A DNA stretch of 64,000 nucleotides from an uncultured Ectothiorhodospiraceae bacterium (GCA_913055615.1 CAJXKK010000008.1:1-64000), one strand, 5' to 3'; counted from the first letter of the stretch, positions 24,160 to 43,559 are shown. The notes: generated from the sequence alone by a model not told the origin. Translations and numbers: made by a program.

Positions 24160-24357
24160 ATAGCCTGTGGATAAGCTGTTTGTGGATTGCAGTCGCTATC
24201 GCCGTTTGCGAGGCAGAAATCGCGACGTGGCGGGGGTTTGGGCGGGTTGGATTGATCGGTGTGTCAGTGGGGCTACCGAGTCGGTGGCACAGCTTATTGT
24301 GGTCAAGGGGGTAGAGCGAAAAATTTTCCGGAATCCGATTGAGCCAGGCAGGGAATT

Positions 24358-24496
24358 GTAGGAGCGAGCTTGCTCGCGATGGTTGGCGGGATCGTGGCGG
24401 CCCTTGGTAGGCAGCGACTTGGCCATTGGGGCGTTTTCGAGCGGGGTGCGCTCCGGACCTTGTGCGGGCACGATCGCGAGCAAGCTCGCTCCTGCA
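24358..24496. repeat. REP-2 inverted pair
   Basis: GTAGGAGCGAGCTTGCTCGC (24358 on) and its reverse complement (about 24474-24496) face each other about 95 bases apart. Each unit is itself a hairpin (GCGAGC-TT-GCTCGC). Confidence 0.85.
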
Positions 24497-24719: not shown

Positions 24720-26201
24720 CTACGGTTTCCACTGGCTCATGAAGTCGTTGACCGGCATGTCGTCGAGTTGGGCCGGGTCGGTGCAGATCTCTTCCAGGGC
24801 TTCGTACTGGTGCTGGTCTAAACGCGTGCGCGCGTTGCGGCGGAACTTGGTGAGCAGGGCGGGGATGCCCTCGTCGCGGCGGCGCGGGTGGCCGATGGGG
24901 TATTCGACCTCGATGCGATCGGTGGACGAGCCGTCTTTAAAGAACACCTGCACGGCGTTGGCGATGGAGCGTTTGTCCGGATCGAGGTAATCGCGGGTGT
25001 AGCGTTCGTCCTCGCTGATCTCCATGCGCTCGCGCAGGCGGTCGATCGCCGGATGATCGGCGTGGAAGTCGTCGGCGTAGTGTTCGGCGCGCAGGTCGCC
25101 CAGCAGGAGGGCGACGGCGGTCATGTACTGCAGGCAGTGGTCGCGGTCGGCCGGGTTCGCCAGTTCGCCGGTCTTGGAGATGATGCGGATCGCGGATTCG
25201 TGGGTGGTGATGGCGATGTGCTCGATATCGTCGATGCGGTCGCGCACCTCGTCGTGCAGCGTGACCGCCGCCTCGCACGCGGTCTGGGCGTGGAATTCGG
25301 CCGGGAACGAGAGCTTGAACAGGATGTTCTCCATGACGTAGCTGCCGTACTCGCGCGGCCGGCGGAAACGGCGCTCGCCTTCCGGTTTGATCGCCTGGTC
25401 GCGGTTGGTCTTGCTGAACAGCACGTCGTAGAAACCCCATTGCGGCGCCGACAGCGCGCCCGGGATCCCCGGCTCGCCCCGGAGCGCGATATCCGCCAGG
25501 CGCACGCCGCGCGCGGTGGCATCGCCCGCCGCCCAAGACTTGCGCGGGCCGGCGTTGGGCGCGTGGCGGTAGGTGCGCAGGGCCTGGCCGTCCACCCAGG
25601 CGTGGGAGATCGCGGACAGGAGCTGCTCGCGCGTGGCGCCCTGCATGTGCGCGACGACCGCCGTGGTCGCGACCTTCACCAGCACGACGTGATCCAGCCC
25701 GACGCGGTTGAAGCTGTTCTCCAGCGCCAGCACGCCCTGGATCTCGTGCGCCTTGATCATCGCCTCGAGTACCGCGCGCATGGTCGGTGGCGCGACGCCC
25801 TTGGCGACACTGCGCCGCGAGATGAAATCCGCCACGGCGAGGATGCCGCCGAGGTTGTCCGAGGGATGCCCCCACTCCGCGGCCAGCCAGGTATCGTTGT
25901 AATCCAGCCAGCGGATGATGCAGCCGATATCCCAGGCCGCCTTCTCCGGATCGAGTTCGAATTCCGTGCCCGGGACGCGCGCGCCGTGCTGGATCTCCAT
26001 CCCCGAAAACCGCGGCCCCAGATGCCGCGTGCACTCCGGATACCCCAGCGCAAGCAGACCGCAGCCGAGCGTATCCAGCAGACAGTGACGGGCCGTATCG
26101 AAGGCGAGGTCCGAGTCGATGCGGGTGTCGCGGACATAATCCGCGATCGCCTGGATCTCGTCGTCGTAATCGGGGCGGATGTTGGTCTCGGTTGTGCTCA
26201 T
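24720..26201 (-). CDS. prpD: 2-methylcitrate dehydratase
   Basis: A 493-residue MmgE/PrpD-family enzyme that dehydrates 2-methylcitrate to 2-methyl-cis-aconitate in propionate catabolism. Typical segments are present: the N-terminal [62 protein letters not shown] followed by KSWAAGDA, and the C-terminal domain with [11 protein letters not shown]. Length is normal. It is the last gene of gntR-prpB-prpC-prpD but is separated from prpC by 332 bases of inverted repeats, so it may be expressed less than the others. No acnD or prpF is present, consistent with use of PrpD. Confidence 0.92.
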
Positions 26202-26237
26202 GGGGATTTTCCGGAGTCAGGGGGAGTGGAATCAGAA

Positions 26238-26528
26238 ATCAGGAACCACGAATGGACACGAATGGACACGAATGTTTCCCGGGTATTGGTGGCGCTCCTG
26301 GGAGCTACCGCTGAGATGTCGTGGGAAATTGAAGTGCACTTTAGAACCACAGATGAACACAGATGGACACAGATAAAGTCAAAATCGCAAATCCGCCTTT
26401 ATCTGTGTTCATCTGTGTCTATCTGTGGTTCCTGAATGTAACGATCTCCGATACTCATTCCGGTATCAGTGAAGCTCCCGGAAGATCCGCAAACCCCAAT
26501 CCCATTCGTGTTCATTCGTGGTTCTAAA
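26238..26528. repeat. Nested inverted repeats between prpC and prpD
   Basis: An outer pair, GAACCACGAATGGACACGAA (about 26236-26275) and CATTCGTGTTCATTCGTGGTTC (about 26503-26524), encloses an inner pair GAACCACAGATGAACACAGA (about 26343-26376) and TTTATCTGTGTTCATCTGTG... (about 26398-26433). The two families are relatives (CACGAATG versus CACAGATG). The whole can fold into a large double hairpin in mRNA inside the operon. No gene lies here. Confidence 0.8.
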
Positions 26529-26533
26529 AAAGA

Positions 26534-27658
26534 TCAGCGCTCGTCGATAGCCGGCACAGGTCGCAGTTCCTCGCCGGTGTATTCGGCGGAGGGGCGGATG
26601 ATGCGGTTGTCGGCGCGTTGTTCGAAGACGTGGGCGGCCCAGCCGGTGTGGCGGCTCATGACGAAGATGGGTGTGAACAGCTTCGTCGGGATGCCCATGA
26701 AGCGGTACGCCGAGGCGTGGAAGAAGTCGGCGTTGCAGAAGAGTTTTTTCTCACGCCACATGACTCCCTCGCAGCGCTCCGATACGGGGTAGAGCGTCTC
26801 GTCGCCGACCGTTTCGGCCAGGCGTTTCGACCAGCCCTTGATGATGGCGTTGCGCGGGTCGGATTCGCGGTAGACGGCGTGGCCGAAGCCCATGATCTTC
26901 TCTTTGCGTTCGAGCTTGCCGAGGATCTCGCGCTCGGCCTCCTCCGGCGATCGCCACTGCTCGATCATCGCCATGGCGTGTTCGTTGGCGCCGCCGTGCA
27001 ACGGGCCGCGCAGGGAGCCGATGGCGCCGGTGATGCAGCTGTGCATGTCCGACAGGGTCGAGGCGCACACGCGGGCGGTGAAGGTCGAGGCGTTGAATTC
27101 GTGCTCGGCGTAGAGGATCAGCGATACGTGCATTGCCTGCTCGTGGACCGGGTCCGGCTGCTCACCGTGGAGCATGCGCAGGAAGTGGCCGCCGATCGAG
27201 TCGGCCTCGACGTCGGTGTCGATGCGCACGCCGTCGTGGCTGTAGCGGTACCAGTAACAGACGATCGCCGGTAGCAGCGCGAGGATGCGGTCGGCCACCT
27301 CGTCCTGCTCGCTGAAGTCCTGTTCGGTCTCGAGCGTGCCCAGCATCGACACGCCGGTGCGCATCACGTCCATGGGGTGCGCGCTGGCGGGGATGCGCTC
27401 CAGCGCCTCGGCCAGCGGCGCCGGCAGTTCGCGGCGCTCGCGCAGGCGCTGTTTGTAGGCGTCCAGTTCCCGGCGGTTCGGCAGATGGCCCTTGAGCAGC
27501 AGGTGCGCGACCTCTTCGAAGATGCACTGCTCGGCCAGTTCCTTGACGTCGTAGCCGCGGTAGGTCAGGCCGGAGCCCTCGATGCCGACCGTGGAGAGCG
27601 CGGTCCGGCCGGCGACCTGGCCGCGCAGGCCGGCGCTCGCGTTGGCTTGTTTGTTCAT
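26534..27658 (-). CDS. prpC: 2-methylcitrate synthase
   Basis: A 374-residue citrate-synthase-fold enzyme that joins propionyl-CoA and oxaloacetate. Landmarks include [20 protein letters not shown], the first catalytic-His region [29 protein letters not shown] with the second His, and [10 protein letters not shown]. The short length and N-terminal [11 protein letters not shown] are typical of PrpC rather than GltA. It overlaps prpB by 4 bases (ATGA type), so the two are coupled. Confidence 0.95.
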
Positions 27659-28566
27659 TGGTTCTTCTCCCTCTTGTTGCCGCGGCCCTGGCCGCGCGCG
27701 AACAGTTCGTCGAGTTTGTGTTCGTAGGCGTGGTAGTCGAGGTAGTCGTAGAGTTCTTCGCGCGTCTGCATCAGATCGACCACCTCGTTCTGGCTGTCGT
27801 TCTCCAGCAGGCTGAAGTACACCGCCTCGGCGGCGCGGTTCATCGCGCGGAACGCGGACAGCGGGTAGAGCACCATGTCGACGCCCCAGGCGGCGAGGTC
27901 GCTGCGATTGTGCAGCGGCGTGCGACCGAACTCGGTCATGTTCGCCAGCAGCGGCACGTCGCCGAGCGCCTTGCGGAACGCGCGGTAGTCATCTTCCTCG
28001 GCGACCGCCTCGGCGAAGATGCCGTCGGCACCGGCCTCTACATAGGCGCAGGCGCGGTCGATGGCGGCATTGCGGCCTTCGCGGGCGAAGGCATCGGTGC
28101 GGGCCATGATGAAGAACTCGGGGTCGGTGCGGGCATCGACCGCGGCCTTGATGCGGTCGACCATCTCGCCGGTGTTCACGCAGGCCTTGTTGGGCCGGTG
28201 GCCGCAGCGTTTCTGCGCGACCTGGTCCTCGATGTGCACGGCCGCCGCTTCGGCGCGGATCATTCCGCGGATGGTGCGGGCGATGCCGAGCGCGTCGCCC
28301 CAGCCGGTGTCGATGTCGACCAGCAGCGGCAGCGACGAGGCGTCGGTGATGCGGCGGACGTCTTCCAGCACGTCGTTGCGGTCGGTCAGCCCGAGATCGG
28401 GCAGGCCGAAGGAAGCGTTGGCGACGCCGCCGCCGGAGAGGTAGATCGCGCGGTGGCCGAGGCGCTCGGCCATGACCGCGCAGTAGGCGTTGATCGTACC
28501 GACGATCGGCAGCGGCTCGTGCGCCGCGAGCTCGCTGCGGAAGCGCCCGCCTGGTGATGTACTCAT
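27655..28566 (-). CDS. prpB: 2-methylisocitrate lyase
   Basis: A 303-residue member of the isocitrate lyase/PEP mutase family, cleaving 2-methylisocitrate to pyruvate and succinate. The catalytic cysteine is Cys121 in KRCGH. The metal-binding DIDTGWGD and substrate segment [19 protein letters not shown] are conserved. The gene overlaps both the upstream regulator and the downstream prpC by 4 bases. Confidence 0.95.
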
Positions 28567-29246
28567 GAGGTCTCCTCGGCCGGCGATTCGGTCGCGGCCA
28601 TGCGTTGTTCGATGTTCTTCAGCGATGCGCGGATGTGGCGGCGCATCAGCATCTCGGCCATCTCCGGGTCGCGGTCGGCGATGGCGTCGACGATCTGCTG
28701 GTGCTCGTTCCAGGCCGGGCGCGCGCGCGGGCCGACCATGCCGAACTGGCGCCGGTACAGCCGCAGCTTGTCGTAGAGCTGGCCGTCGAGCTGGCGCTCC
28801 AGCATGGCGTTGCCGCTGCCGGCGGCGAGGCGCGAGTGGAAGTCGAGGTCATGTTCGCCCTGAATATAGGCGGTGCCCTCGCGCAGCGCGGCGCTGTTCT
28901 CATGGTCGGACAGCAGCGCGCGGATGCCCTCGATGGCGCGGTCGCTCATCGTCTGCGCCGCCAGGCGGCAGACCATCCCCTCCAGGCACTCGCGCAGCTC
29001 GTACAGGTTGCGCAGTTCCCCGCGCGACGGGATGCATACCCGGGCGCCGGCGTTGTGTCGGCGCACGACCAGGCCGCGGTTGACCAGCCCGGTGATCGCC
29101 TCGCGCACGGTGCTGCGCGCGACGCCGTGGCGGCGGGCGAGTTCGAGTTCGGGCAGGTGGGCGCCCGCCGGCAGCCCGCCGTCGATGATGGACTCGCGCA
29201 GGTTGGCAAGGAGGGCGGTCGCGGTCGTCGGTGTGCTCAGGTCCAT
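28563..29246 (-). CDS. GntR/FadR-type regulator of the prp operon
   Basis: A 227-residue regulator with an N-terminal winged helix-turn-helix ([20 protein letters not shown], about residues 33-52) and a C-terminal all-helical FCD ligand domain. It is the first gene of the prp operon and overlaps prpB by 4 bases. Two copies of the putative operator GATTGTCNGNCAATC lie just upstream of its start, and a third before prpE, so it probably controls both units and itself. The effector is expected to be a methylcitrate-cycle intermediate, by inference only. Confidence 0.85.
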
Positions 29247-29389: not shown

Positions 29390-30358
29390 ATGACGCAGCC
29401 GAACGCAGATGAACGCCTGGATCCGATCGCCGACGGGATCTGGCGCTTCGATACCCGCTACACCCGGCCGCGCCACACGGGCTGCACGATCGTGGTCGAC
29501 AGCGGCCGCGCGGCGATTTTCGATACCGGCGTTCCCGGCAACGTCGATGCGCTGGTCGCTGCGGTCGGGTCGCTCGGTATTCCGGCGGACGCGGTGGACT
29601 GGGTGATCGTCAGCCATGCCCACCTCGATCATATGGCCGGCGTCGGCCCACTGATGCAGCGCCTGCCCACCGCGCGGGTGGCGGCGCATCCGTCCGCCGC
29701 GCCGCACGTGATCGATCCGGAGAAGCTCGAGAAGGGCTCGCGGACGGTCTTCGGTGGCGATTTCGTCGATCAGTACTACGCCGGCGTCGAGCCGGTGGCG
29801 ACCGAGCGTGTGGTCGAAACGGATGATGGCGACGTACTCACGATCGGCAAGCGCGAGTTGCAGACCGTTTACGCGCCGGGTCACGCCTGGCACCAGCAGG
29901 CGATCTGGGATGCGCGCACCCGGACCGTACTGGCGGGCGATGCGTTCGGCGTGTCCTATCCAGAGCTGGTGGGGGACGACGGGCCGTTCGTCATCCTGCC
30001 GACGGCGCCGCCGCAGCTGGCGCCGGAGGCGATGCACGAGACCATGGACCGCATCGTGGGCCTCGAACCCGCGCGCGTGGTGCCGGCGCACTTTACGGTG
30101 ATCGAGCAGCCACGTGCGGTCGCCGGCGAACTCCACCGCATCATGGATGAGTGGCTGGATATCGCGCTCGAGGCCTCCTCGGCCGAGGATCTGCTGGAAC
30201 GACTCAATGCCGCCTGCTCGGCTGACCTCGAACGCCGCGGCCGCGGCGACGAGGCCGCGACCATGCGCGAGCTGTATCACCTGGATATCGCGGTCAACGC
30301 CCAGGGCCTGTGGCATTGGCGCCGCCGCCGCGAAGAACGCGCGCAGAAGTCCAGGTAG
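29390..30358 (+). CDS. Metallo-beta-lactamase-fold hydrolase
   Basis: A 322-residue MBL-fold protein. The zinc motif is VSHAHLDHMAGVGP near residue 80, followed by a His in PGHAWHQQAIW, the metal-bridging Asp in LAGDAFGVSYPEL, and a final His in VPAHFTVIEQ. The C-terminal 70 residues are helical, as in members that hydrolyse thioesters or lactones. The ATG at 29390 is preferred; upstream codons run through the operator region. It is transcribed divergently from gntR-prpBCD with a shared putative operator, so a role in acyl-CoA or organic-acid metabolism is likely. The substrate is unknown. Confidence 0.8.
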   Translation: MTQPNADERLDPIADGIWRFDTRYTRPRHTGCTIVVDSGRAAIFDTGVPGNVDALVAAVGSLGIPADAVDWVIVSHAHLDHMAGVGPLMQRLPTARVAAHPSAAPHVIDPEKLEKGSRTVFGGDFVDQYYAGVEPVATERVVETDDGDVLTIGKRELQTVYAPGHAWHQQAIWDARTRTVLAGDAFGVSYPELVGDDGPFVILPTAPPQLAPEAMHETMDRIVGLEPARVVPAHFTVIEQPRAVAGELHRIMDEWLDIALEASSAEDLLERLNAACSADLERRGRGDEAATMRELYHLDIAVNAQGLWHWRRRREERAQKSR

Positions 30359-30570
30359 GCCGGCCTGTCCGCAGCGAAGCGGAGGAAATGCCGGCAGACG
30401 GCGCCTCCCTCGCCGCGCACGTGCTCGATTCCGACACGCGTGCCGGCATTGCCCGGCGCGCCAACCGACGTGCTCATCGCCCGCCGCGTCACGCGCCGGA
30501 CAAGACCGGCCTACGTCCCATGGTGATGCCGCGATGCGCGCGTTCGCCTTCGGCGAAAACGCGCCTATGG
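30356..30570. repeat. REP-3 copies and a GGCGAAAACGCGCC hairpin
   Basis: GTAGGCCGGCCTGTCCGCAG at 30356 and an inverted AAGACCGGCCTACG near 30501-30515 bracket the region. At about 30537-30570 GCGCGTTCGCCTTCGGCGAA continues into AACGCGCCTA, a hairpin that recurs inverted at 39061-39098. No gene is seen between 30359 and 30824. Confidence 0.7.
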
Positions 30571-30758
30571 GCTGGGGTGCGACATGCGACGTAGCCGCGT
30601 CTTTGACCGGGCCACCGCACCGGTCGAATGCGCACAGCCCGCCCCGAATCGCCCGATTCCGCCCGCACCGCAAACCGCGCGTGCTCGCCTCCAGTGGAAC
30701 CGTGAACCCGTGTGCTGCATCCGTTCGGGTTGCGCGGAGCATTTGGTTTCGGTACAAC

Positions 30759-30778
30759 GCATTCTGTATACAGAATGC
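30759..30778. promoter_or_regulatory. Perfect 20-bp palindrome, putative operator of the hcm-locus GntR regulator
   Basis: GCATTCTGTATACAGAATGC reads identically on both strands and lies 47 bases before the regulator start. GntR/FCD proteins often bind short symmetric sites of this kind around TGTATACA. It is the strongest palindrome of the neighbourhood. Confidence 0.65.
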
Positions 30779-30824
30779 AAAACGGGTTCATCACGGACTC
30801 GTTGCATGGAGAGCGACGGAGACA

Positions 30825-31514
30825 ATGGACGCAATCGGACATCAAAAAGCGCTGCCGGATCTGGTCCACGAGCGGATCGTGGAGGGTATCTGCAACGGCT
30901 CGCTGGCGCCGGGCGAGCGCCTCACGCAGGACGGTCTGGCGCGCCAGCTCGACGTCTCGCGGCTGCCGGTGGGGCAGGCGCTCAAGCGCCTCGAAGCGGA
31001 AGGCTTCGTGCAGCCGGCCGGGCGGCGCGGGGTCAAGGTGGCGCCGCTGGAGGAGCGCTTCGTGCGCGAACTCTACGAGTTCCGCATGGGGATCGACCAG
31101 GTCAGCGCCGGTCTGGCCGCACGCCGTGCTGGCCCCGATCTGCGCCAACGCGGCGAGGCCATACTCGAGCGCGGCCGCTGCGCCTCCGGGGACGGCGATA
31201 TTCCCGAACTCATCGCCGCCGATATGGCCTTCCACCAGCTGATCTACGAGGCCGCCGGCAACGGCATGATCCTCGAGACGATGGCCTCGCACTGGAACCA
31301 CACCCGGCGCGTGATGCAGACGATCCTCAGCGATGACCGCCACAAAGAGCAGGTCTGGCATGACCATGCCGCGATCCTCGACGCGGTCTGCGCCGGTGAC
31401 GTGACGACGGCTGAGCGCGCGGCGCGCGATCACGCCGAACGCGCGTCGGAATGGTTCGAAAACGAGATGGCCCGCGCGGATTCGCACGCACGGGTCGGGA
31501 CTGCACAGGGGTAA
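30825..31514 (+). CDS. GntR/FCD-type regulator of the B12-mutase locus
   Basis: A 229-residue regulator. The winged helix is at about residues 12-75 (VHERIVEGICNGSLAPGERL then LARQLDVSRLPVGQALKRLE) and the FCD domain follows, with metal-type residues in DMAFHQLIYEAAGN and HAAILDAV. The ATG at 30825 follows a GGAGAC and starts MDAIGHQKALPDLV. It ends 6 bases before the small mutase subunit gene, indicating one transcript. The palindrome at 30759-30778 probably mediates autoregulation. Confidence 0.85.
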   Translation: MDAIGHQKALPDLVHERIVEGICNGSLAPGERLTQDGLARQLDVSRLPVGQALKRLEAEGFVQPAGRRGVKVAPLEERFVRELYEFRMGIDQVSAGLAARRAGPDLRQRGEAILERGRCASGDGDIPELIAADMAFHQLIYEAAGNGMILETMASHWNHTRRVMQTILSDDRHKEQVWHDHAAILDAVCAGDVTTAERAARDHAERASEWFENEMARADSHARVGTAQG

Positions 31515-31520
31515 TCAGCG

Positions 31521-31961
31521 ATGGCGGAGAATGCAGCGAAATCGGCGCAGGGCGCCGGCGAGAATATCCGGGTCCTGCTGGCGAAGGTGGGCCTGGACGG
31601 CCACGACCGCGGCGTAAAAGTCGTCGCGCGCGCCCTGCGCGACGCGGGCATGGACGTCGTCTACTCGGGCCTGCACCGCACGCCCGAGGAAGTGGTCGCC
31701 GCCGCCGTGCAGGAGGACGTCGACGTGCTCGGTGTTTCGATCCTCTCGGGTGCGCACATGACGGTGTTCCCGCGCGTGATGAAGGCGCTCGACGAACACG
31801 ACGCCGAGGACATCATCGTCGCCGGCGGTGGCGTCATCCCGGACGACGACGTCGCCAGGCTCACGGAGATGGGCGTGCAGAAGATCCTGCTGCAGGACAC
31901 GCCGCCCGATGAGATCGTCAACGCGTTCCGCCAGCTCGTCGCCGAGCGTGGGCCGCGGTGA
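31521..31961 (+). CDS. hcmB: Cobalamin-binding small subunit of an acyl-CoA mutase (HcmB-like)
   Basis: A 146-residue B12-binding domain. DGHDRG at residues 26-31 provides His28, the expected axial cobalt ligand. Further B12 loops are LGVSILSGAH and VAGGGVIPDDD. Length agrees with separately encoded small subunits of 2-hydroxyisobutyryl-CoA and archaeal-type methylmalonyl-CoA mutases, not with fused MutB. Its large subunit is encoded 2.7 kb downstream, with a ligase and a G-protein chaperone between. The Hcm naming depends on the large-subunit residues described at 34696-36396. Confidence 0.75.
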   Translation: MAENAAKSAQGAGENIRVLLAKVGLDGHDRGVKVVARALRDAGMDVVYSGLHRTPEEVVAAAVQEDVDVLGVSILSGAHMTVFPRVMKALDEHDAEDIIVAGGGVIPDDDVARLTEMGVQKILLQDTPPDEIVNAFRQLVAERGPR

Positions 31962-32307
31962 ATCCCGATGCCGGTGCGATTGCCTTGTGTCTTTCGTGAA
32001 TGGGGGACCGTGCATGGGGTTCTCGCAGAGGCGCGAAGAACGCAAAGGGACGCAAAGCGACTGCAATCAAAGCGGAGGTCTTGTAGGAGCGAGCTTGCTC
32101 GCGAACCGACGTCCGGTGTCCGAGGGGGTCGGATTGGCGAGCATTGTCTGGAGGTGGCGGAGAAGTAGACGGTAATACCAGTGGACAGCGGTTCGCGAGC
32201 AAGCTCGCTCCTACAGACAATCCTTGGCTCGCTTTGCGCCTTGGCGAGAAACCGAATTCCGACTGCGTAAAACAACACCCGTGGGCCATGCCCGACGTGG
32301 AGTGTGA
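31962..32307. repeat. Repeat-filled gap inside the mutase operon (REP-2 pair and REP-4)
   Basis: REP-4 TTCTCGCAGAGGCGCGAAGA begins near 32020. A REP-2 unit at 32083-32104 is paired with its inverse at 32193-32214. A second REP-4 part, GCGCCTTGGCGAGAAACC, is near 32238. No gene is seen; an internal promoter for the ligase may lie in the last 50 bases. Confidence 0.8.
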
Positions 32308-33732
32308 ATGATGGAAGAGTGGCAGTTTCCACCGAATTACGACGAAGGGTATTTCCCGGATCCGTCCAGCCGTTACTGGTTCCCCGAGCGCGAGACCATG
32401 GATCCGGCCGCGCGTGAAGCGAAGATCCTCGGGCGCCTGCAGGAGGTCATGAACTACGCCTGGCAGAATTCCGCCTTCTACCGGCGCAAGTGGGAGGAGG
32501 CCGGCGTCCATCCCGATCACATCCAGTCGCTGGAAGACTTCGAGGATCGGGTGCCGGTCATCACCAAACAGGACCTGCGCGATTCGCAGGCCGGGGCGCC
32601 GCCGTTCGGCGATTACCTGTGCATCCCCGAGGACGAGATCCATCACATCCACGGGACTTCGGGCACGACCGGTCGGCCGACGGTTTTCGGCATCGGCCGC
32701 CGCGACTGGAACACGATCGCGAACAACCAGGCCCGCGTGATGTGGGGCATGGGGTTGCGGCCCGGCGACATGGTCTTCATCGCCTCGGTCTTCAGTCTCT
32801 ACATGGGTTCCTGGGGTACGCTCACGGGCGCCGAGCGCCTCGGCTGCAAGTGCTTCCCGTTCGGTGCCGGTGCGCCCGGCATGACGCAGCGCGCCGTGAC
32901 CTGGCTGAAGATGATGCAACCGGCCGGTTTCTACGCGACGCCGTCCTATGCGCTGCGCCTCGCCGAGGTCGCCGAGGAAGAGGGCGTCGATCCGCGCGAG
33001 TTCGGTCTGAAGGTGATGTTCTTCTCCGGCGAGCCGGGTGCGTCGATCCCCGGCATCCGCGACCGCATCGCCAGGATCTTCGGCGCCCGCGTCGTCGACT
33101 CCGGCACTATGGCCGAGATCACGCCATGGATGAACGGCGCCGGCAGCTCCGAGACCGGCGGCATGTTGCTGTGGCAGGACATGGTCTACGGCGAGGTCTG
33201 CGATCCGCACACGAACCGCCGCGTCCCCTGGGGCGAGCAGGGGACGCCGGTCTACACCAACCTTGAGCGCACCTCGCAGCCGATGATCCGGCTGCAGTCG
33301 GGCGACCTGACCCACTGGGTCATGGAAGACAACCCCTGCGGGCGCACCTATCCGCGCCTGCCGCGTGGCATCTACGGCCGCATCGACGACATGTTCCAGA
33401 TCCGCGGCGAGAACGTGTACCCGAGCGAGATCCACGCCACGCTCAACGAGATGGAAGGCTACGGCGGCGAGCACCGCATCGTGATCACCCGCGAGGGCAG
33501 CATGGACGAACTGCTGATCCGCCTTGAGCCGTCGAAGGGGCTTGAGGCGTACGGTGCCGATGCGGTGAAGGAATTCCGTGATAAGGCCAAGCACGATCTC
33601 GAGCGCATGCTCGGTTTCCGCGTCGGCATCGAGATGGTCGCGGCGGACACGTTCCCGCGCACCGACTTCAAGGCCAAACGCGTGATCGAGGACCGCGACC
33701 TCTACAGCAGCCTGCGCCAGGAGGCGGAGTGA
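32308..33732 (+). CDS. PaaK-like acyl-CoA ligase, probable 2-hydroxyisobutyryl-CoA ligase
   Basis: A 474-residue AMP-forming ligase of the phenylacetate-CoA ligase type. The P-loop is HGTSGTTGRPTVFG near residue 115, the adenylate region is SGEPGASIPGIRDRI and DSGTMAEITPW, and the hinge is YGRIDDMFQIRGENVYPSEI near 355. It converts a carboxylic acid, ATP and CoA to the acyl-CoA. In known 2-hydroxyisobutyrate degraders a ligase of this family is encoded beside hcmA and a MeaB-like chaperone, exactly the order here. Substrate assignment is therefore from context. ATGATG at the start allows either 32308 or 32311. Its stop overlaps the next gene by 4 bases. Confidence 0.75.
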   Translation: MMEEWQFPPNYDEGYFPDPSSRYWFPERETMDPAAREAKILGRLQEVMNYAWQNSAFYRRKWEEAGVHPDHIQSLEDFEDRVPVITKQDLRDSQAGAPPFGDYLCIPEDEIHHIHGTSGTTGRPTVFGIGRRDWNTIANNQARVMWGMGLRPGDMVFIASVFSLYMGSWGTLTGAERLGCKCFPFGAGAPGMTQRAVTWLKMMQPAGFYATPSYALRLAEVAEEEGVDPREFGLKVMFFSGEPGASIPGIRDRIARIFGARVVDSGTMAEITPWMNGAGSSETGGMLLWQDMVYGEVCDPHTNRRVPWGEQGTPVYTNLERTSQPMIRLQSGDLTHWVMEDNPCGRTYPRLPRGIYGRIDDMFQIRGENVYPSEIHATLNEMEGYGGEHRIVITREGSMDELLIRLEPSKGLEAYGADAVKEFRDKAKHDLERMLGFRVGIEMVAADTFPRTDFKAKRVIEDRDLYSSLRQEAE

Positions 33733-34724
33733 GCGAGCGCGTCCCATCCGATGAGCTCGCGCGGCGTGTGCGCGAGGGGAATCTGCGTGCCGCCGCGCGG
33801 CTGATCACCCGGGTTGAAGCGGGCGAGGACGAGTGCCGCCCGGCACTGGCCGAGCTCTATCGGCACACGGGGCACGCCCACGTCGTCGGCATCACCGGAG
33901 TGCCGGGCTGTGGCAAATCGACGCTGGTTTCCCAGCTCGCGCGCACCCTGCGTGCGGACGGCCGTCGGGTGGGGATCGTCGCGATCGACCCGTCGAGCCC
34001 GTTCTCCGGCGGGGCCATCCTGGGTGATCGCATCCGCATGTCGGACCTGGTCGAGGATCCGGGCGTGTTCATCCGCAGCATGGCCACGCGCGGTGCGCTG
34101 GGCGGACTCGCCAAGGCGAGTCTCGATGCCGTGGATATCCTCGACGCCGCCGGCTTCGACACCATCCTGATCGAGACGGTCGGAGTCGGTCAGGACGAGG
34201 TCGATATCGTCCAGGCGGCGCAGTCCACCGTGGTCGTCTCCGCCCCCGGGCTCGGCGACGACATCCAGGCGATCAAGGCGGGCGTGCTCGAGATCGCCGA
34301 CATCCATGTCGTTTCCAAGGCCGACCGCGCCGATGCGAACCGTACCGTCATGGAACTCAAGACCATGCTCACCATGAGCATGCCCAGCGGCCCGGATCAG
34401 TGGTACACGCCCGTGGTCGCCACAAGTTCCGAAAAGTGTACCGGCTTCGACGAACTGCGCGATGCCATCGACCGCCACCGCGCGCATCTGATCGATTCCG
34501 GTGAGCTGGAGAACAAGCGCAGCGAGATCGCCGCCAACCGAATGCTCAAGATCGCCGAAGGCATCGTGCGTGAGGACTTCCGTCGCGAGCGCGAAGCCGA
34601 TCTTGCCGATGTCCTGGGCCGCGTCAGCCGACGCGAGACCGACCCGCATGCCGGCGCCGTCGAGCTGCTGGCCGTAGTGAATTCGAGGATCCGCCATGAA
34701 TCGACAGCAGACCCTGTTCAGTAA
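33729..34724 (+). CDS. MeaB/ArgK-type GTPase chaperone of the B12 mutase
   Basis: A 331-residue G3E-family GTPase. Walker A is GVPGCGKST at residues 57-65, followed by VGIVAIDPSSPFSGGAILGD and VETVGVGQDEVDIV. SKADRADAN provides the guanine-specificity motif. Such proteins load adenosylcobalamin and guard or repair the mutase. The GTG start at 33729 overlaps the ligase stop (GTGA), and the 3' end overlaps the mutase gene by 29 bases, so the three are tightly coupled. In a 2-hydroxyisobutyrate locus this gene is called meaH. Confidence 0.88.
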   Translation: MSERVPSDELARRVREGNLRAAARLITRVEAGEDECRPALAELYRHTGHAHVVGITGVPGCGKSTLVSQLARTLRADGRRVGIVAIDPSSPFSGGAILGDRIRMSDLVEDPGVFIRSMATRGALGGLAKASLDAVDILDAAGFDTILIETVGVGQDEVDIVQAAQSTVVVSAPGLGDDIQAIKAGVLEIADIHVVSKADRADANRTVMELKTMLTMSMPSGPDQWYTPVVATSSEKCTGFDELRDAIDRHRAHLIDSGELENKRSEIAANRMLKIAEGIVREDFRREREADLADVLGRVSRRETDPHAGAVELLAVVNSRIRHESTADPVQ

Positions 34725-36396
34725 AGACGAACTCGACCGCATCGACGCTGAGTACCGCGACTGGGAAGGCAACGAGGTAGCCCGTTTCCTGGAGCGTTCG
34801 CCCGAGCGCCGTGACACCTTCCGCACCGGTGCCGGGCTCGACGTCAAGCGCACGTACACGCCGGTCGATACGCCCGAGACGCCCTGGGATGACATCGGCC
34901 TGCCGGGCCGCTACCCGTTCACCCGCGGCCCGTACCCGACCATGCATCGCGGTCGTCCATGGACCATGCGCCAGATCGCCGGCTTCGGCATGGCGGCCGA
35001 TACCAACCGGCGTTTCCATTACCTTATGGCGCAGGGCCAGACCGGCCTGTCGGTCGACTTCGATATGCCCACGCTGATGGGCTACGACTCAGACCACCCG
35101 ATGAGCGAGGGCGAGGTCGGTCGCGAGGGCGTGGCGATCGACACCCTGGCCGACATGGAGGCGCTGTTCGACCGGATCGATCTGGAGAAGATTTCGGTCT
35201 CGATGACGATCAATCCCTCGGCCTGGATCCTGTTCGCGATGTACATTGCCGTGGCCGAGAAGAACGGCTTCGATCAGGCGAAGCTGTCGGGCACGATCCA
35301 GAACGACATCCTCAAGGAATACATGGCGCAGAAGGAGTGGATCTATCCGGTGCGCCCGTCGCTGCGCATCGTGCGCGACTGCATCACCTACGGGGCGCAG
35401 CACCTGCCGCGCTACAACCCGCTCAACATCTCCGGCTATCACATCTCCGAGGCCGGCGCCGTGGCGACCCAGGAGGTCGCCTACACCATGGCCAGCACGA
35501 TCCAGTACGTGCAGGAGGCCGTCGACGCCGGCGTCGATGTCGACGACTTCGCACCCAGGTTGTCGTTCTTCTTCGTCAGTCAGGCCGACTTCTTCGAGGA
35601 GATCGCCAAGTTCCGCGCGGCACGCCGCGTGTACGCGAAGATCATGGCCGAGCGCTTCGGCGCGAAGAAGCCCGAGTCCTGCCGCCTGCGCTTCCACGCG
35701 CAGACCGCGGCGGCCACGCTCACGAAGCCGCAGCCCAAGGTGAACATCGTCCGCACCGCCTTCCAGGCGATGTCGGCGGTACTCGGCGGCGCGCAGTCAC
35801 TGCACACCAACGGCCTCGACGAGGCCTACTCGATCCCGACCGAGGAGGCGATGAAGATCGCCCTGCGCACCCAGCAGGTGATCGCCCACGAAACGGGCGC
35901 CGCGGATGTCGTCGATGGCATCGGCGGCTCCTGGTATGTCGAGAATCTGACCACGCGCATCGAGGAAGAGGTCTGGAAGATCCTCGACGAGGTGGAGGAG
36001 ATGGGCGGCACGATCCAGTGCATCGACGACGGCTACTTCCAGCGCGGCATCGCCGACTCCGCTTACGACTACGCCATCCGCAAGGCGAGCGGCGACCGCC
36101 CGGTCATCGGCGTCAACTGCTACGTCGAGGAGGGCGGCGACCCGGAGGTCGAGGTCCATCCGCACGACCCCGAGACCGAACGCAACCAGATCGCGCACCT
36201 GCAGCGCGTACGCGACGGGCGCGATGAGTCGCAGGTCCAGCAACTGCTGGAAGAACTGCGCAACACCGCCGAGGACGAGTCGAAAAACCTGATGCCGGTC
36301 ACGATCAAACTGGTAAAAGCCGGTGCTTCGATGGGCGACATCGTCGAGACCCTGCGCGAGCTTTGGGGTACGTATCGCGAGACGCCGGTGATCTGA
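34696..36396 (+). CDS. hcmA: B12-dependent acyl-CoA mutase large subunit, probable 2-hydroxyisobutyryl-CoA mutase
   Basis: A 566-residue TIM-barrel subunit lacking the B12 domain. The substrate channel has PTMHRGRPWTMRQIAGFG and GLSVDFDMPTLMGYDSDHP. Aligned from memory, methylmalonyl-CoA mutase has Tyr in place of Ile94 (RQYAGF) and a different residue in place of Asp121, and isobutyryl-CoA mutase has Phe at the first site. The Ile/Asp pair, 27 residues apart, is that of 2-hydroxyisobutyryl-CoA mutase (Ile90/Asp117), which forms 3-hydroxybutyryl-CoA. The rest (ISVSMTINPSAWILFAMYIA, RLRFHAQTAAATLTKPQPKV) is ordinary for the superfamily. Methylmalonyl-CoA or another branched acyl-CoA as substrate is not excluded by sequence alone. 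Confidence 0.78.
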   Translation: MNRQQTLFSKDELDRIDAEYRDWEGNEVARFLERSPERRDTFRTGAGLDVKRTYTPVDTPETPWDDIGLPGRYPFTRGPYPTMHRGRPWTMRQIAGFGMAADTNRRFHYLMAQGQTGLSVDFDMPTLMGYDSDHPMSEGEVGREGVAIDTLADMEALFDRIDLEKISVSMTINPSAWILFAMYIAVAEKNGFDQAKLSGTIQNDILKEYMAQKEWIYPVRPSLRIVRDCITYGAQHLPRYNPLNISGYHISEAGAVATQEVAYTMASTIQYVQEAVDAGVDVDDFAPRLSFFFVSQADFFEEIAKFRAARRVYAKIMAERFGAKKPESCRLRFHAQTAAATLTKPQPKVNIVRTAFQAMSAVLGGAQSLHTNGLDEAYSIPTEEAMKIALRTQQVIAHETGAADVVDGIGGSWYVENLTTRIEEEVWKILDEVEEMGGTIQCIDDGYFQRGIADSAYDYAIRKASGDRPVIGVNCYVEEGGDPEVEVHPHDPETERNQIAHLQRVRDGRDESQVQQLLEELRNTAEDESKNLMPVTIKLVKAGASMGDIVETLRELWGTYRETPVI

Positions 36397-36963
36397 CGAT
36401 TTCGCGTGTCTTTCCCGGAAAAACCGGTTCTCGCCAAGACGCAAGGTTCGCCAAGGAGCGCAAAGAAAACGAAGAACGTTTGTAGGAGCGAGCTTGCTCG
36501 CGAACCGGTGTCCCGAGACGATCGACTCCGGATCGATACCGGCAGATAGATGTAACGCCAATCGAGGGTCTGAAGCGGTTGATCGCCCGACCTCGTGAAG
36601 GCGGTTTCTCGCAGAGGCGCGGAGTGCGCTGAGAAAAAGCAATATCAAGGGTCTTGTCCTGGTGGTCTTGGCGTCCAGGATCCGAAACATCATGTAGGCC
36701 GGTTTTCGGCGAAGCCGAATGCCGGCATTGCCCGGCGCGATGACCGCACAGCACCGGCCATACGTTGTCGCCGCGCCGGGCAAAACCGGCCTACGTGTTC
36801 CCGCCCGCTCGATTCCTGATCCATTCTTTCTTTCCTGATTTTCTCGATTTTTCTCCGCGCACTCCGCGCCTCTGCGAGAACCGAATTTCGCCGTTCCAGG
36901 TGTTGTCCGACACGTAATCCGAAATCGCTGTTCAGACTCCGATAGATTGCACAAAATCGACCG
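36397..36963. repeat. Intergenic repeats: REP-4, REP-2, REP-3
   Basis: In order: REP-4 TTCTCGCCAAGACGCAAGG near 36431, REP-2 at 36482-36503, REP-4 TTTCTCGCAGAGGCGCGGAG near 36605, a REP-3 pair at 36694-36794 (GTAGGCCGGTTTTCGGC and AAAACCGGCCTAC), and inverted REP-4 CTCCGCGCCTCTGCGAGAAC near 36863. No gene is seen. Confidence 0.8.
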
Positions 36964-36978
36964 GATTGTCTGCCAATC
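36964..36978. promoter_or_regulatory. Putative prp GntR operator, copy 3, before prpE
   Basis: GATTGTCTGCCAATC shares GATTGTCNGNCAATC with the copies at 29254 and 29317. It lies 105 bases before the prpE start, linking prpE to the prpBCD regulator 7.6 kb away. Confidence 0.55.
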
Positions 36979-37082
36979 CTTGCGCGCGGTTGCCCGGGCG
37001 GTTATATGTGAGCGATCCAACGCAAGGTCGTTTCGGGGGGCATACGGAGTCGGGCGCCCCGCGGCCGGGAGGGAGAACCGCG

Positions 37083-38987
37083 ATGACGGCCTACGACCCG
37101 ATCCACGAACGCTCGCTGCGCGACCCCGAAGGCTTCTGGGCCGAGGTGGCCGAAGATCTGCACTGGGACCGACGCTGGGAGCGCGTGCTCGACGATTCCG
37201 ATGCCCCGTTCTACCGCTGGTTCACCGGCGGCCAGCTCAATACCTGCTACAACGCCATCGACCGCCACGTCGCGGCCGGCCACGGCGCGCAGACGGCGTT
37301 GATCCACGACAGCGCGGTCACGGGCACCTGCAGCCGCTGGGATTACGCGGGGCTGCAGGACGAGGTCGCCCGCCTCGCGGGGCTGCTGCGCGCGCAGGGC
37401 GTGGATAAGGGGGATCGCGTCGTCATCTATATGCCGATGATCCCCCAGGCCGTGTTCGGCATGCTCGCCTGCGCGCGTATCGGCGCCATCCATTCGGTGG
37501 TGTTCGGCGGTTTCGCCGCGTCCGAACTCGCCTCCCGCATCGACGACGCGGAACCGAAGCTGGTACTGAGCGCATCCTGCGGGGTCGAACCGGCGGGCGT
37601 CGTCGATTACCACGGCCTGCTCGACCGGGCCCTCGCGCTCGCGACGCATGAGGTGCCGGGCTGCCTGATCTGGCAGCGCGAGCAGCAGCCGGCGGGACTC
37701 GTGAGCGGCCGCGATGTCGACTGGGCCCAGGCGCTGCAGACGGCCACACCGGCGGATTGCGTGCCAGTGGACGCCACCGATCCCCTCTACATCCTCTATA
37801 CCTCCGGCACGACCGGCCACCCGAAGGGCATCGTGCGCGACAACGGCGGCCACGCCGTCGCGCTGCAGTGGTCGATGCGCAACATCTACGCCATGGCGCC
37901 CGGCGACGTGTACTGGACGGCCTCCGATATCGGCTGGGTCGTGGGGCACTCCTATATCGTCTACGGGCCGCTGCTGAACCGGAACACGACCGTGATGTTC
38001 GAGGGCAAGCCGGTCGGTACGCCGAATGCGGGTGTCTTCTGGCGGGTGATCCAGGATCACGGCGCGAAGGCTTTGTTCACCGCGCCCACCGCGATCCGCG
38101 CCATCCGCTCGGCGGATCCGGATGGCGAGTACCTGCGGCAATACGATATCAGCTCGCTCGAGTCGTTCTTCCTCGCCGGTGAGCGTTCCGATCCCGCGAC
38201 CATTCACTGGTCGGAACGCAATCTCGGCGTCCCCGTGGTCGATCACTGGTGGCAGACCGAGACCGGCTGGGCCATCGCCGCCAATCCGCTGGGCATCGAA
38301 CGCCTCCCGGTCCAGGCCGGCTCGGCAGGCAAGCCCATGCCCGGGTACGACGTGCGGGTGCTGAATGAGCGCGGTGAAGAAAAGCCCCGCGGCGAGCTGG
38401 GCAATATCGCCCTCCGGCTACCGCTGCCGCCGGGGACGCTGGCCACGCTCTGGAGCAACCGAGCAGGCCACCACGAGCATTACCTGTCGCGCTATCCCGG
38501 CTACTATCTCACCGGCGACTCCGGCGTGATCGATGCCGACGGCTACATCCACGTCATGAGCCGTATCGACGATGTCATCAACGTTGCCGGGCACCGGCTG
38601 TCGACCGGCCGCATGGAGGAGGTCCTTTGCGATCACCACGCCGTCGCCGAGGCCGCGGTGTTCGGCGTCAATGACGAGACCAAAGGGCAGCTCCCGCTTG
38701 CTCTGGTCGTACCCGCCGCCGGCAAGGAAACGGACCGGGAGGCACTGGTGAAAGAGCTCGCCGGACACATGCGCAACGAGGTCGGACCGGTCGCCGCGTT
38801 CCGCCTGTGCACGCTGGTCAAACGCCTGCCCAAGACCCGCTCCGGCAAGGTCCTGCGCGCCACCATGCGCAAGATCGCCAACGGCGAGGAGTGGAAAGCG
38901 CCCGCGACCATCGACGACCCGAAGATCCTCGACGAGATCGGCGAGGCCTTGTCCGATCTCGGGTTCCCGCGTACGGGTGCCGATTGA
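37083..38987 (+). CDS. prpE: Propionyl-CoA synthetase
   Basis: A 634-residue AMP-forming acyl-CoA synthetase of the acetyl/propionyl-CoA type. The P-loop is YTSGTTGHPKGIVRDNGGHA; the RDNGGH extension is the PrpE/AcsA-like form. WWQTETGW and the hinge SRIDDVINVAGHRLSTGRME follow. The C-terminal acetylation-prone lysine is in PKTRSGKVLRATMR. It feeds propionate into the methylcitrate cycle encoded at 24.7-28.6 kb. The ATG at 37083 has GGGAGGGAGAA upstream; the longer reading from 36966 would overlap the operator. It stands alone. Confidence 0.92.
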   Translation: MTAYDPIHERSLRDPEGFWAEVAEDLHWDRRWERVLDDSDAPFYRWFTGGQLNTCYNAIDRHVAAGHGAQTALIHDSAVTGTCSRWDYAGLQDEVARLAGLLRAQGVDKGDRVVIYMPMIPQAVFGMLACARIGAIHSVVFGGFAASELASRIDDAEPKLVLSASCGVEPAGVVDYHGLLDRALALATHEVPGCLIWQREQQPAGLVSGRDVDWAQALQTATPADCVPVDATDPLYILYTSGTTGHPKGIVRDNGGHAVALQWSMRNIYAMAPGDVYWTASDIGWVVGHSYIVYGPLLNRNTTVMFEGKPVGTPNAGVFWRVIQDHGAKALFTAPTAIRAIRSADPDGEYLRQYDISSLESFFLAGERSDPATIHWSERNLGVPVVDHWWQTETGWAIAANPLGIERLPVQAGSAGKPMPGYDVRVLNERGEEKPRGELGNIALRLPLPPGTLATLWSNRAGHHEHYLSRYPGYYLTGDSGVIDADGYIHVMSRIDDVINVAGHRLSTGRMEEVLCDHHAVAEAAVFGVNDETKGQLPLALVVPAAGKETDREALVKELAGHMRNEVGPVAAFRLCTLVKRLPKTRSGKVLRATMRKIANGEEWKAPATIDDPKILDEIGEALSDLGFPRTGAD

Positions 38988-39576
38988 TCTCGTCATGCGC
39001 CGACAGGATAAAAGCGGTTCTTGCAAAGGCGCCAAGGCCGCAAAGGTCGCCGAGAGAGAGCGTAGGCGCGTTTTCACCGAAGGCGAACGCGCGCATGAAT
39101 GGCATCGCGATCGAATAACCTGTGGGAATTGAGGAGCCTATGCCGGCTTACGTGCCCATCTGCAATCCGATTCCTCTGTAAACACGTAGGCCGGTTTTGC
39201 CCGGCGCGGCCACAACGGTGGCTGTTTCCCTGGAGCGATCGCGCCGGGCAATGCCGGCATTCGGCTTCGCCGAAAACCGGCGTACGTTCTATTGGTCTCA
39301 TCGAGCGGACGCTTGCGACTTCGAGAGACCGGTTCGCGAGCAAGCTCGCTCCTACAAAAGTCCTGAATTTCCTTTGCGTCCCTTGGCGCGCTTGGCGTCC
39401 TGGCGAGAGGCGCTTTTGACCTTATCCCAGAGCCATCCGCGAACTCCGCGCCTGCGCGAGAACCCGACGCACCACGCCTGACCGAAGCCATCAACCGATC
39501 CAGACCCCATGTGCAGCAACGAGACGACTGGGCGACCCACACACATCACCGGTATGCTTGACGCAGGAGGTATCCC
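38988..39576. repeat. Intergenic repeats: REP-4, hairpin, REP-3, REP-2
   Basis: REP-4 near 39018, the AGGCGCGTTTTCACCGAAGG hairpin at 39064-39098, a REP-3 pair at 39186-39285, an inverted REP-2 at 39334-39355, then two inverted REP-4 parts near 39385 and 39434. The final 90 bases should hold the promoter of the ROK kinase; none was clear. No gene is seen. Confidence 0.75.
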
Positions 39577-40467: not shown

Positions 40468-40513
40468 ATCCCACCGCCTGAGGGCAAAATCGCCCTACGG
40501 GCAACGGATTGAG

Positions 40514-40548
40514 GTAGGCCGGTTTTCGGCGTAGCCGAATGCCGGCAC
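40514..40548. repeat. REP-3 unit left of RAYT2
   Basis: GTAGGCCGGTTTTCGGCGTA followed by GCCGAATGCCGGC. A near-identical unit lies 87 bases after the RAYT2 gene in the same orientation. Confidence 0.85.
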
Positions 40549-40581
40549 TGACGGGTTGGCGATTCCACGGAAGGAGTCACT

Positions 40582-41085: not shown

Positions 41086-41123
41086 GGATCGGACGTCATT
41101 TTGACGATTTCAGGGCTCGTCGT

Positions 41124-41204
41124 GCCGGCATTGCCCTCCGGGCAAAACCGGCCTACGGCTGGGGGAATGAGGTAGGCCGGTTTTCGGCGAAGCCGAATGC
41201 CGGC
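41124..41204. repeat. REP-3 inverted pair right of RAYT2
   Basis: GCCGGCATTGCCCTCCGGGC...ACCGGCCTAC (41124-41157) then GTAGGCCGGTTTTCGGCGAA...GCCGGC (41172-41204). It ends 10 bases before the hrpB stop codon. Confidence 0.85.
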
Positions 41205-41213
41205 ATCGCGCGC

Positions 41214-43559
41214 CTACCGCACATCCACTACACGACTCGCACGACGGTACTCGACTTTCCATCCGGGCCACGCAGGCAATTCCCAGCTCTTTGGATCGCT
41301 CTTGCGGCGGCCGCCGACGTGTTCGGCGGTTACGGTGCGGCGGTGGACGTTGTAGTGGATGCGCAGTTCGAGGTCGGATAGTGACACGTGGCGCGGGTAC
41401 TGGCGGTCGAAGCGTTCGCGTTCCCATTCGGGGACGCCGTCGAAATGCAGGTCGTCGGGTTCGACCAGGGCGATGTCGGTGGCCTGCTCGACGCCGAGGT
41501 CTCGGAGGCGTTCGGTCAGCCAGGATTCGGCATCCGGTGTCTCGCCTTCGGCGTATCCCAGACGGACGTACAGATTCCATGCGGCGAGGTCGTCGCGCAG
41601 GCATTCGCCGGCCGGTTTGAGCAGGCGGCGCTCGAGTACGAGCCGCGCGATCGCTGCACGGGCTTCCTCACCTTCGGGTTCGATCTCTTCGCTGCCGATG
41701 GACCGTCCGGCGAAATACCAGCGGCGTTCCGCCAGAACGGTCCCGTTGCCGGGCTTAGGGTCCTCGATGGCCGCGGTCGCCAGTCGAGCGCCGACGAGGT
41801 CCTGGAGACTGACCGGCGCCAGGCAGGTCCCGAGGGTGAGCGTCTCGCGCGTGCCGCGGCCGGGTACCGCGTGGTCATCGAACACGAGCGCGGCCTCGTC
41901 GTCGTCGCCGAGCAGGCTGTCGTCCGCCGGTTGCAGTTCGCGCTCGCCGTTGGCGAGGACGTGGCGCCTTTTGCCGCGCCGGACATGCGCCAGTTCCGGG
42001 ACCGCGGCCATCGCCGCGCGCAGGGCGTTGGCCGGGTCGATATCGAGCGCGTCCGGGCGCGCGGGCAGAGCGGCGAGCGCCCGGACCCGGTCGCTGAGCC
42101 GCCGTGCCTCCTCACGCGCGCCGCGGTTGGCGCGCACACCGGGTAGTGCCTGTCCGCGTAGCAGGGCGACCAGCAACGTGGCGTCGCAGCGCCGCCCGAG
42201 TGCCCGCAGCAGGACTTCTCGTTCGGCTGGATCCGCTGGTGCGGTCGCGATCCGCTGGCGTGTCGACAGCGCCGCCACCAGATCCGCCATGAATCCGCCG
42301 GTGCCCGGATCGGGCATGGCCGTCACGAGATGCGCGAGCAGCGGGTCCAGCGGCAGGGCGAACAGGGCATGGCCGCGCGGGGTGGCGTGGCCGTCACCGT
42401 CGATGGCGCCAATATCGGTTAACAGGCTCTCGGCGCGGGCCAGTGACTGCCCCGGCAGTTCGTCCGGAAACGACAGCGCCCGCGCCGGACGGCCGCAGCA
42501 GGCGGCGGCCAGTACGGTATCGGTCAGATCCTCGCGCTCGATCTCGGGCGGTGTAGCGCTCGCCAGCGGCGCCTGGGCGCCCCACAGCCGCAGGCAGAGC
42601 CCGGGCGCGGTCCGCCCGGCGCGGCCGGCGCGCTGGTCCGCGGCCGAGCGGGCGATCGCCTCCAGTGCCAGCACGGTGCGGCCATTGCGACGCCGCGTCC
42701 GGCGTTCGAGGCCGCTGTCGATTACGGCGGTGACGCCGGGCACGGTCAGCGAGGTCTCGGCGACATTGGTCGCCAGGATCACGCGCCGACCGTCGCCGGG
42801 GGCGAGGGCGCGGCGCTGGTCGGCATCGGGCGCCCCGGCGTGCAGGGCGATGACGTCGGCGTCGATCTTCCCGAGCCGGTTCGCCGCGCCCCGGATCTCG
42901 CCGCGCCCGGGCAGGAACACGAGCAGATCGCCTTTGGTTTCCCCAAGCGCCTGCTGGACCGCTTCCGCGATCCGGCGGTCCAGGCCCTTCGAGGTCGGCA
43001 TGTCGCGCGGCTCTCGGCCGATGTGGCGCGTTTCGACCGGATGGCTGCGGCCCTCGGCGTCGAGACGGCGGGCGCCCAGCTGTTCGGCCAGGCGGTGGCC
43101 ATCGAAGGTGGCCGAGGTGAGCACGAGCCGGTGGCGGTCGGTGTCGCGCAACAGGGCCAGCAGCAGATCGGTGTCCGCTCGGCGTTCGTGGAATTCGTCG
43201 AGGATAATGGTCGCAAAACCGGCGAGACCATCGTCGGTGAACCAACGCAGGGCGATGCCCGGTGTCACGAACAGGACGCGGGTAGCCGGCCCGTAAGCGC
43301 TGTCAAAACGGATCGCGTAGCCGACCTCGCCGCCCGCCTCGCCACCATTCAGCGACGCGACATAGCCGGCCAGACTGGTCGCCGCGATGCGCCGGGGCTC
43401 GATGACCAGCACGGGGCCGTGCTCGGCCGCCCACAGGGGCAGGCGCGTGGATTTGCCGGAGCCCGTGGCCGCCGAGACCACGGTGTGGCCGGCGGCGAGG
43501 GCCTCGTGGAAATCCGTGCGCAGCGATTCGATCGGCAACGGGGTCGCCGGTTCGGTCAT
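41214..43559 (-). CDS. hrpB: ATP-dependent helicase HrpB
   Basis: A 781-residue DEAH/RHA-family helicase. Walker A is AATGSGKSTRLP near residue 31, Walker B is LDEFHERRADTDL, and TSATF is motif III. ATNVAETSLTVPGV and QRAGRAGRTAPGLC are motifs V and VI. The HrpB C-terminal domain ends WPGWKVEYRRASRVVDVR. The true cellular role of HrpB is unclear; the family acts on RNA. Slightly shorter than the 810-820 residue norm. It stands alone on the minus strand. Confidence 0.92.
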   Translation of the reverse strand: MTEPATPLPIESLRTDFHEALAAGHTVVSAATGSGKSTRLPLWAAEHGPVLVIEPRRIAATSLAGYVASLNGGEAGGEVGYAIRFDSAYGPATRVLFVTPGIALRWFTDDGLAGFATIILDEFHERRADTDLLLALLRDTDRHRLVLTSATFDGHRLAEQLGARRLDAEGRSHPVETRHIGREPRDMPTSKGLDRRIAEAVQQALGETKGDLLVFLPGRGEIRGAANRLGKIDADVIALHAGAPDADQRRALAPGDGRRVILATNVAETSLTVPGVTAVIDSGLERRTRRRNGRTVLALEAIARSAADQRAGRAGRTAPGLCLRLWGAQAPLASATPPEIEREDLTDTVLAAACCGRPARALSFPDELPGQSLARAESLLTDIGAIDGDGHATPRGHALFALPLDPLLAHLVTAMPDPGTGGFMADLVAALSTRQRIATAPADPAEREVLLRALGRRCDATLLVALLRGQALPGVRANRGAREEARRLSDRVRALAALPARPDALDIDPANALRAAMAAVPELAHVRRGKRRHVLANGERELQPADDSLLGDDDEAALVFDDHAVPGRGTRETLTLGTCLAPVSLQDLVGARLATAAIEDPKPGNGTVLAERRWYFAGRSIGSEEIEPEGEEARAAIARLVLERRLLKPAGECLRDDLAAWNLYVRLGYAEGETPDAESWLTERLRDLGVEQATDIALVEPDDLHFDGVPEWERERFDRQYPRHVSLSDLELRIHYNVHRRTVTAEHVGGRRKSDPKSWELPAWPGWKVEYRRASRVVDVR

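Follow-up and report, generated by a model that had tools for sequence, protein, structure and literature searches.

Does the split acyl-CoA mutase of this uncultured Ectothiorhodospiraceae bacterium act on methylmalonyl-CoA, as its automatic annotation states, or on 2-hydroxyisobutyryl-CoA? The window, i.e. the whole stretch of 64,000 nucleotides (64 kb) analysed here, carries at positions 30825-36396 five genes on one strand (+) in the order GntR-hcmB-hcl-meaH-hcmA, and the automatic model TIGR00641 labels HcmA methylmalonyl-CoA mutase. A sequence-only reading had argued for 2-hydroxyisobutyryl-CoA mutase rather than methylmalonyl-CoA mutase; its coordinates and motifs are correct, and on the mutase the two residues and the tree agree with it, as independently do the ligase and the small subunit. 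We consider it highly probable that the five genes constitute a 2-hydroxyisobutyrate (2-HIBA) catabolic cassette with the pathway and the GntR repression proposed below.

The catalytic large subunit is encoded by hcmA (34696-36396, + strand; 566 aa) and was assigned on its identity to 4R3U, the crystallised 2-hydroxyisobutyryl-CoA mutase of Aquincola, and on the tree. Among solved structures 4R3U was the best match (864 bits, E = 3e-259, so that a chance match is not an issue), followed by methylmalonyl-CoA mutases at ∼445 bits, and identity was 68% to 4R3U, 44% to the Mycobacterium tuberculosis methylmalonyl-CoA mutase and 42% to the human enzyme. The residues on which the earlier reading was built, Ile94 in RQIAGFG and Asp121 in GLSVDFD, 27 residues apart, are present, and the segments MRQIAGFG and TGLSVDFDM align without gaps with MRQIAGFG and TGISTDFDM of 4R3U, Ile on Ile and Asp on Asp. 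We take this pair to be the one numbered Ile90/Asp117 in the characterised enzyme. Both methylmalonyl-CoA mutase references (human and M. tuberculosis), which share superfamily and cofactor with HcmA, have Tyr at the first site, as had been claimed, and Ala at the second. The 3.0-Mb genome, with a stated completeness of 100, encodes no PF01642 protein other than HcmA, whose score lies under the cut-off of NF006944, a full-length equivalog model.

To place HcmA, a tree was built from 80 loci from genome contigs, plasmid records and mutases from a class-wide sample, with RcmA left out. A group of 88 sequences including the window protein and 4R3U (the HCM group) stood apart from 36 others, and thus outside the methylmalonyl-CoA mutases, with an SH-aLRT of 86, a value to be read as a rough guide because the group was picked by similarity to the window protein and the tree was a quick one. 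This support of only 86 is a point against the 2-HIBA reading. Inside the group, HcmA belongs to a 17-member subgroup (SH-aLRT 98), and its closest named neighbours in the tree are the sequences of Arhodomonas and Aquisalimonas. The residue pair is Ile/Asp in 86 of the 88 members and Leu/Asp in the other two (L034 and L046, with Leu replacing Ile at the first position), Tyr/Ala in all sequences of methylmalonyl-CoA mutase type, Val/Asp in split mutases of Sinorhizobium and Shinella, and Phe/Ala in one haloarchaeal mutase. Hence the Ile/Asp pair, named in the sequence-only reading as the mark of the 2-hydroxyisobutyryl enzyme, is a good marker of the HCM group within the sampled sequences.

Two further kinds of mutase were seen in this survey. 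The Val/Asp split mutases on Shinella and Sinorhizobium plasmids (L085, L087) share a conserved gene cluster with genes for an aminotransferase, an enoyl-CoA hydratase and an AMP-binding ligase, and possibly represent an uncharacterised acyl-CoA mutase. Moreover, some betaproteobacterial and related loci (L039, L040, L055, L057) have upstream of the hcm cluster a second, distant mutase that is 33-35% identical, with Phe/Ala and the motif RMFAGEG.

The neighbours named earlier, a B12 subunit, a PaaK-like ligase and a MeaB-like GTPase overlapping the mutase, are all present in the window, and homology establishes gene identity and family membership for all five proteins. The first gene (30825-31514, +) encodes a GntR family, FCD subfamily transcriptional regulator (Pfam FCD 7e-30, GntR 4e-13), of which 52-54% identical orthologues occupy the same position in Arhodomonas, Marinobacter and Aquisalimonas. 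It is followed by hcmB (31521-31961, +; TIGR00640), encoding a separate B12-binding small subunit of 146 aa with the base-on His motif DxHxxG (DGHDRG), whose best structure match is chain C of 4R3U (1.2e-57). The product of hcl (32308-33732, +; 474 aa) is an AMP-forming, PaaK-like 2-hydroxyisobutyrate-CoA ligase, which shares 66% identity with its Methylibium PM1 counterpart and, over its whole length, scores 754 bits against the 2-hydroxyisobutyryl-CoA synthetase 6HDW versus 239 bits against the best PaaK (phenylacetate-CoA ligase); this match to 6HDW is independent evidence for the predicted substrate of the mutase. Downstream, meaH (33729-34724, +) encodes a MeaB-like G-protein chaperone (GTPase) of 331 aa (TIGR00750, 329 bits, above cut-off), and the start of hcmA overlaps its end by 29 bases; hcmA is found in operonic association with hcl and meaH.

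Between hcmB and hcl lies a gap of 346 bp (31962-32307) with a GC content of 59% versus 65-69% in the genes, containing a REP-like palindromic pair (32082-32114 and 32183-32215). REP-like palindromes of this kind (TGTAGGAGCGAGCTTGCTCGCGA) occur in intergenic gaps at 24356-24496, 32081-32215 (the inverted pair between hcmB and hcl), 36480-36513, 39325-39356 and 43825-43920, and further palindromes of the GCCGGTTTTCGGC type were observed at 36694-36800, 39181-39286, 40509-40555 and 41114-41214.

ATP-dependent CoA activation, radical carbon-skeleton rearrangement and chaperone-assisted cofactor loading are traits of the family, from which we infer substrate, stereochemistry and regulation of the cassette. 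Accordingly worded as a proposal, Hcl would convert 2-HIBA to 2-hydroxyisobutyryl-CoA at the expense of ATP, and HcmA, providing the TIM-barrel substrate domain, would act with the cobalamin carrier HcmB in an adenosylcobalamin-dependent radical rearrangement of the carbon skeleton to 3-hydroxybutyryl-CoA, while MeaH would serve in cofactor loading and protection. Given the Ile/Asp active site, the product is most likely the (S) form; (S)-3-hydroxybutyryl-CoA is the published product of HcmAB (PMC7176365). General beta-oxidation enzymes would then carry 3-hydroxybutyryl-CoA to acetyl-CoA, and 3-hydroxyacyl-CoA dehydrogenase homologues are present in the genome, as is a PduO-type cobalamin adenosyltransferase on another contig (C57).

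The proposed regulation centres on a perfect 20-bp palindrome, GCATTCTGTATACAGAATGC, at 30759-30778 upstream of the GntR gene; its core TGTATACA is found at no other place in the window. Of 69 hcm control regions, 25 contain a GTATAC-centred motif, in most cases 35-80 bases before the first hcm gene and with similar palindromic surroundings; among 3904 other 300-bp stretches taken from these loci as background, 52 (1.3%) contain it (binomial P ∼3e-29 with kinship of the loci ignored). A palindrome centred on GTATAC recurs upstream of the hcm operons of ten loci (L002, L008, L021, L027, L032, L037, L042, L047, L074 and L090), and in Marinobacter it takes the variant form GAATACTGTATGCAAACGAC. 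We regard it as the probable operator, at which the hcm GntR regulator would bind (30759-30778 in the window) and repress the operon until a pathway ligand appears. Searches for other control elements gave no Rfam match to a cobalamin riboswitch in the 64-kb window, and a sigma-70 promoter scan found nothing.

The surroundings of the cassette are those of a propionate locus, a point against the 2-HIBA reading, since a pathway through 3-hydroxybutyryl-CoA has no need of such a setting. A methylcitrate operon (GntR/FCD, prpB, prpC and prpD; 24720-29246, − strand; NCBIfam equivalogs and Pfam), in which prpB, prpC and prpD each pass the NCBIfam equivalog cut-offs, is complete and is predicted to handle propionate in this genome in place of a methylmalonyl-CoA route, which speaks for the 2-HIBA reading; between prpD and prpC, at 26344-26431, a 35-base inverted repeat (91%) of ACACAGATGAACACAGATGG-like units was observed. 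The operon is divergent from a metallo-beta-lactamase-fold (MBL) hydrolase gene (29390-30358, +; PF00753), the left neighbour of the cassette, and on the other side of the MBL gene lie the cassette and its right neighbour, a gene for a PrpE/Acs-like acyl-CoA synthetase (36966-38987, +) whose best matches are propionate--CoA ligase models, below cut-off. One congener (G001) has the entire region at 85-98% protein identity, with the order of the prpE-like gene next to the cassette retained. In a second congener (G002), where no hcmA was found, the MBL-fold and prpE-like genes are directly adjacent beside the same methylcitrate operon, and because of this adjacency the hcm cassette was probably inserted between these two genes; this is the simplest reading, to which loss from G002 is the alternative. 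The MBL-prpE adjacency with no hcm cassette between is also seen in a genome of another family (G016). The probable empty site corresponds to window positions 30359-36965 and to L119 5372-5429, and also lies in L140.

The same neighbourhood invites the idea that the main substrate is the C5 homologue, with 2-hydroxy-2-methylbutyryl-CoA rearranged to 3-hydroxyvaleryl-CoA, whose thiolytic cleavage yields acetyl-CoA and propionyl-CoA, the latter passing to the methylcitrate operon. The cassette indeed sits between the methylcitrate genes and the prpE-like gene in the window's genus, and Aquisalimonas lutea (L008) has prpBCD immediately before its hcm cluster, in a different arrangement. However, the active site carries the residue pair of the 2-hydroxyisobutyryl-CoA enzyme, no prp genes were found beside hcm in the Arhodomonas, Natronospirillum and Marinobacter loci (hcm and prp are ∼200 kb apart in M. 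salarius), the cassette-less locus of G002 suggests that the cassette entered the prp locus by chance, and the hcm operator motif is not common to the prp genes. We therefore regard a C5 main substrate as unlikely; if it were true, the hcm-prp neighbourhood of some Gammaproteobacteria would point to a natural substrate beyond the fuel-oxygenate and isobutene degraders.

Propionate metabolism would also be served by a split-subunit methylmalonyl-CoA mutase beside the prp genes, which the TIGR00641 name and the flanking propionate genes favour; it is contradicted by the sequence and was rejected on the Ile/Asp instead of Tyr/Ala pair, the score under the NF006944 cut-off, the tree, a ligase that is an Hcl orthologue, and the missing epimerase (no methylmalonyl-CoA epimerase at cut-off in the genome, best 21.7 bits against a cut-off of 114.95), and we give it hardly any credence. 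That HcmA is some other acyl-CoA mutase of the broad group (pivalyl-, isobutyryl- or uncharacterised) is favoured by the nearby place in the tree of related split mutases that carry Val/Asp (Sinorhizobium, Shinella) or Phe/Ala, but these are 33-56% identical versus 65-78% inside the HCM group and their clusters lack hcl, which makes this very improbable.

The cassette can be compared with known systems. The cluster of Aquincola tertiaricarbonis L108 and Methylibium petroleiphilum PM1 (4R3U, 6HDW) has the same order hcmB-hcl-meaH-hcmA, the Ile/Asp pair and a GntR gene nearby, with 66-70% identity for hcmA, hcmB and hcl and 57% for meaH. The window differs in that its GntR gene opens the operon and is read in the same direction, whereas that of Methylibium PM1 is divergent; the window cassette is also without the linked adenosyltransferase, TPP lyase, gamma-carbonic anhydrase and 3-hydroxybutyryl-CoA dehydrogenase, and no MdpJ was found in the genome. 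The closest named relative, Arhodomonas aquaeolei DSM 8974 (L002; hcmA 78%, hcmB 79%, hcl 75%, meaH 69%, GntR 53%), agrees with the window in gene order and in the type of palindrome that precedes the operon; unlike the window, it has an adenosyltransferase directly downstream and no prp genes within the flank. RcmAB of Kyrpidia tusciae has been described as only distantly related to HcmAB.

The order GntR-hcmB-hcl-meaH-hcmA is common to the window, Arhodomonas, Marinobacter and others, and the closest relatives of HcmA come from Gammaproteobacteria (Arhodomonas aquaeolei 78%, Natronospirillum 75%, Aquisalimonas 74%, Marinobacter 72-74%). G203 gives matches identical to those of the Arhodomonas locus L002, which puts the window in the class of Arhodomonas, Gammaproteobacteria. 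The genomes covered include three from the window's order, all of one genus. Among 369 class genomes sampled, only four had a full-length match of at least 75% (the window's own, its congener, G203 and G074) and one had a 65% fragment; the trait is thus patchy, although named carriers are many. The hcm cluster has been described in many strains, associated with hcl and meaH and usually preceded by a GntR gene, and marine dinoflagellates have been mentioned as a source of carriers (PMC7176365); a limited literature search found no published reports of hcm in Marinobacter. The novelty once seen in a dedicated GntR regulator does not hold, since such a gene is usual in hcm clusters, and the suggested widening of the taxonomic range is weak and minor, with many strains already described and carriers in Arhodomonas, Marinobacter, Aquisalimonas and Natronospirillum common in public genomes. 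The window holds a standard 2-HIBA gene set, complete in a little-sampled gammaproteobacterial lineage, and both the system and the regulator type are already known.

With regard to the source of 2-HIBA, the link to degraders of tert-butyl compounds drawn in the sequence-only reading found no support. The genome has no orthologue of the MdpJ-type tert-butyl alcohol monooxygenase (best match 36% over ∼104 aa, in the Rieske domain only), and degradation of tert-butyl alcohol as the source was therefore rejected. The TPP lyase of the Methylibium cluster, on the route 2-hydroxyisobutyryl-CoA <-> acetone + formyl-CoA, has matches of just 28-30% in the genome. The lack of an evident 2-HIBA source counts against the 2-HIBA reading.

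The name methylmalonyl-CoA mutase that automatic models give to this gene is corrected by the two-residue check together with the linked ligase. Neither the insertion site among the propionate genes nor the candidate operator alters the picture of the hcm system; both are handles on the natural 2-HIBA source of strains that do not live on fuel ethers.
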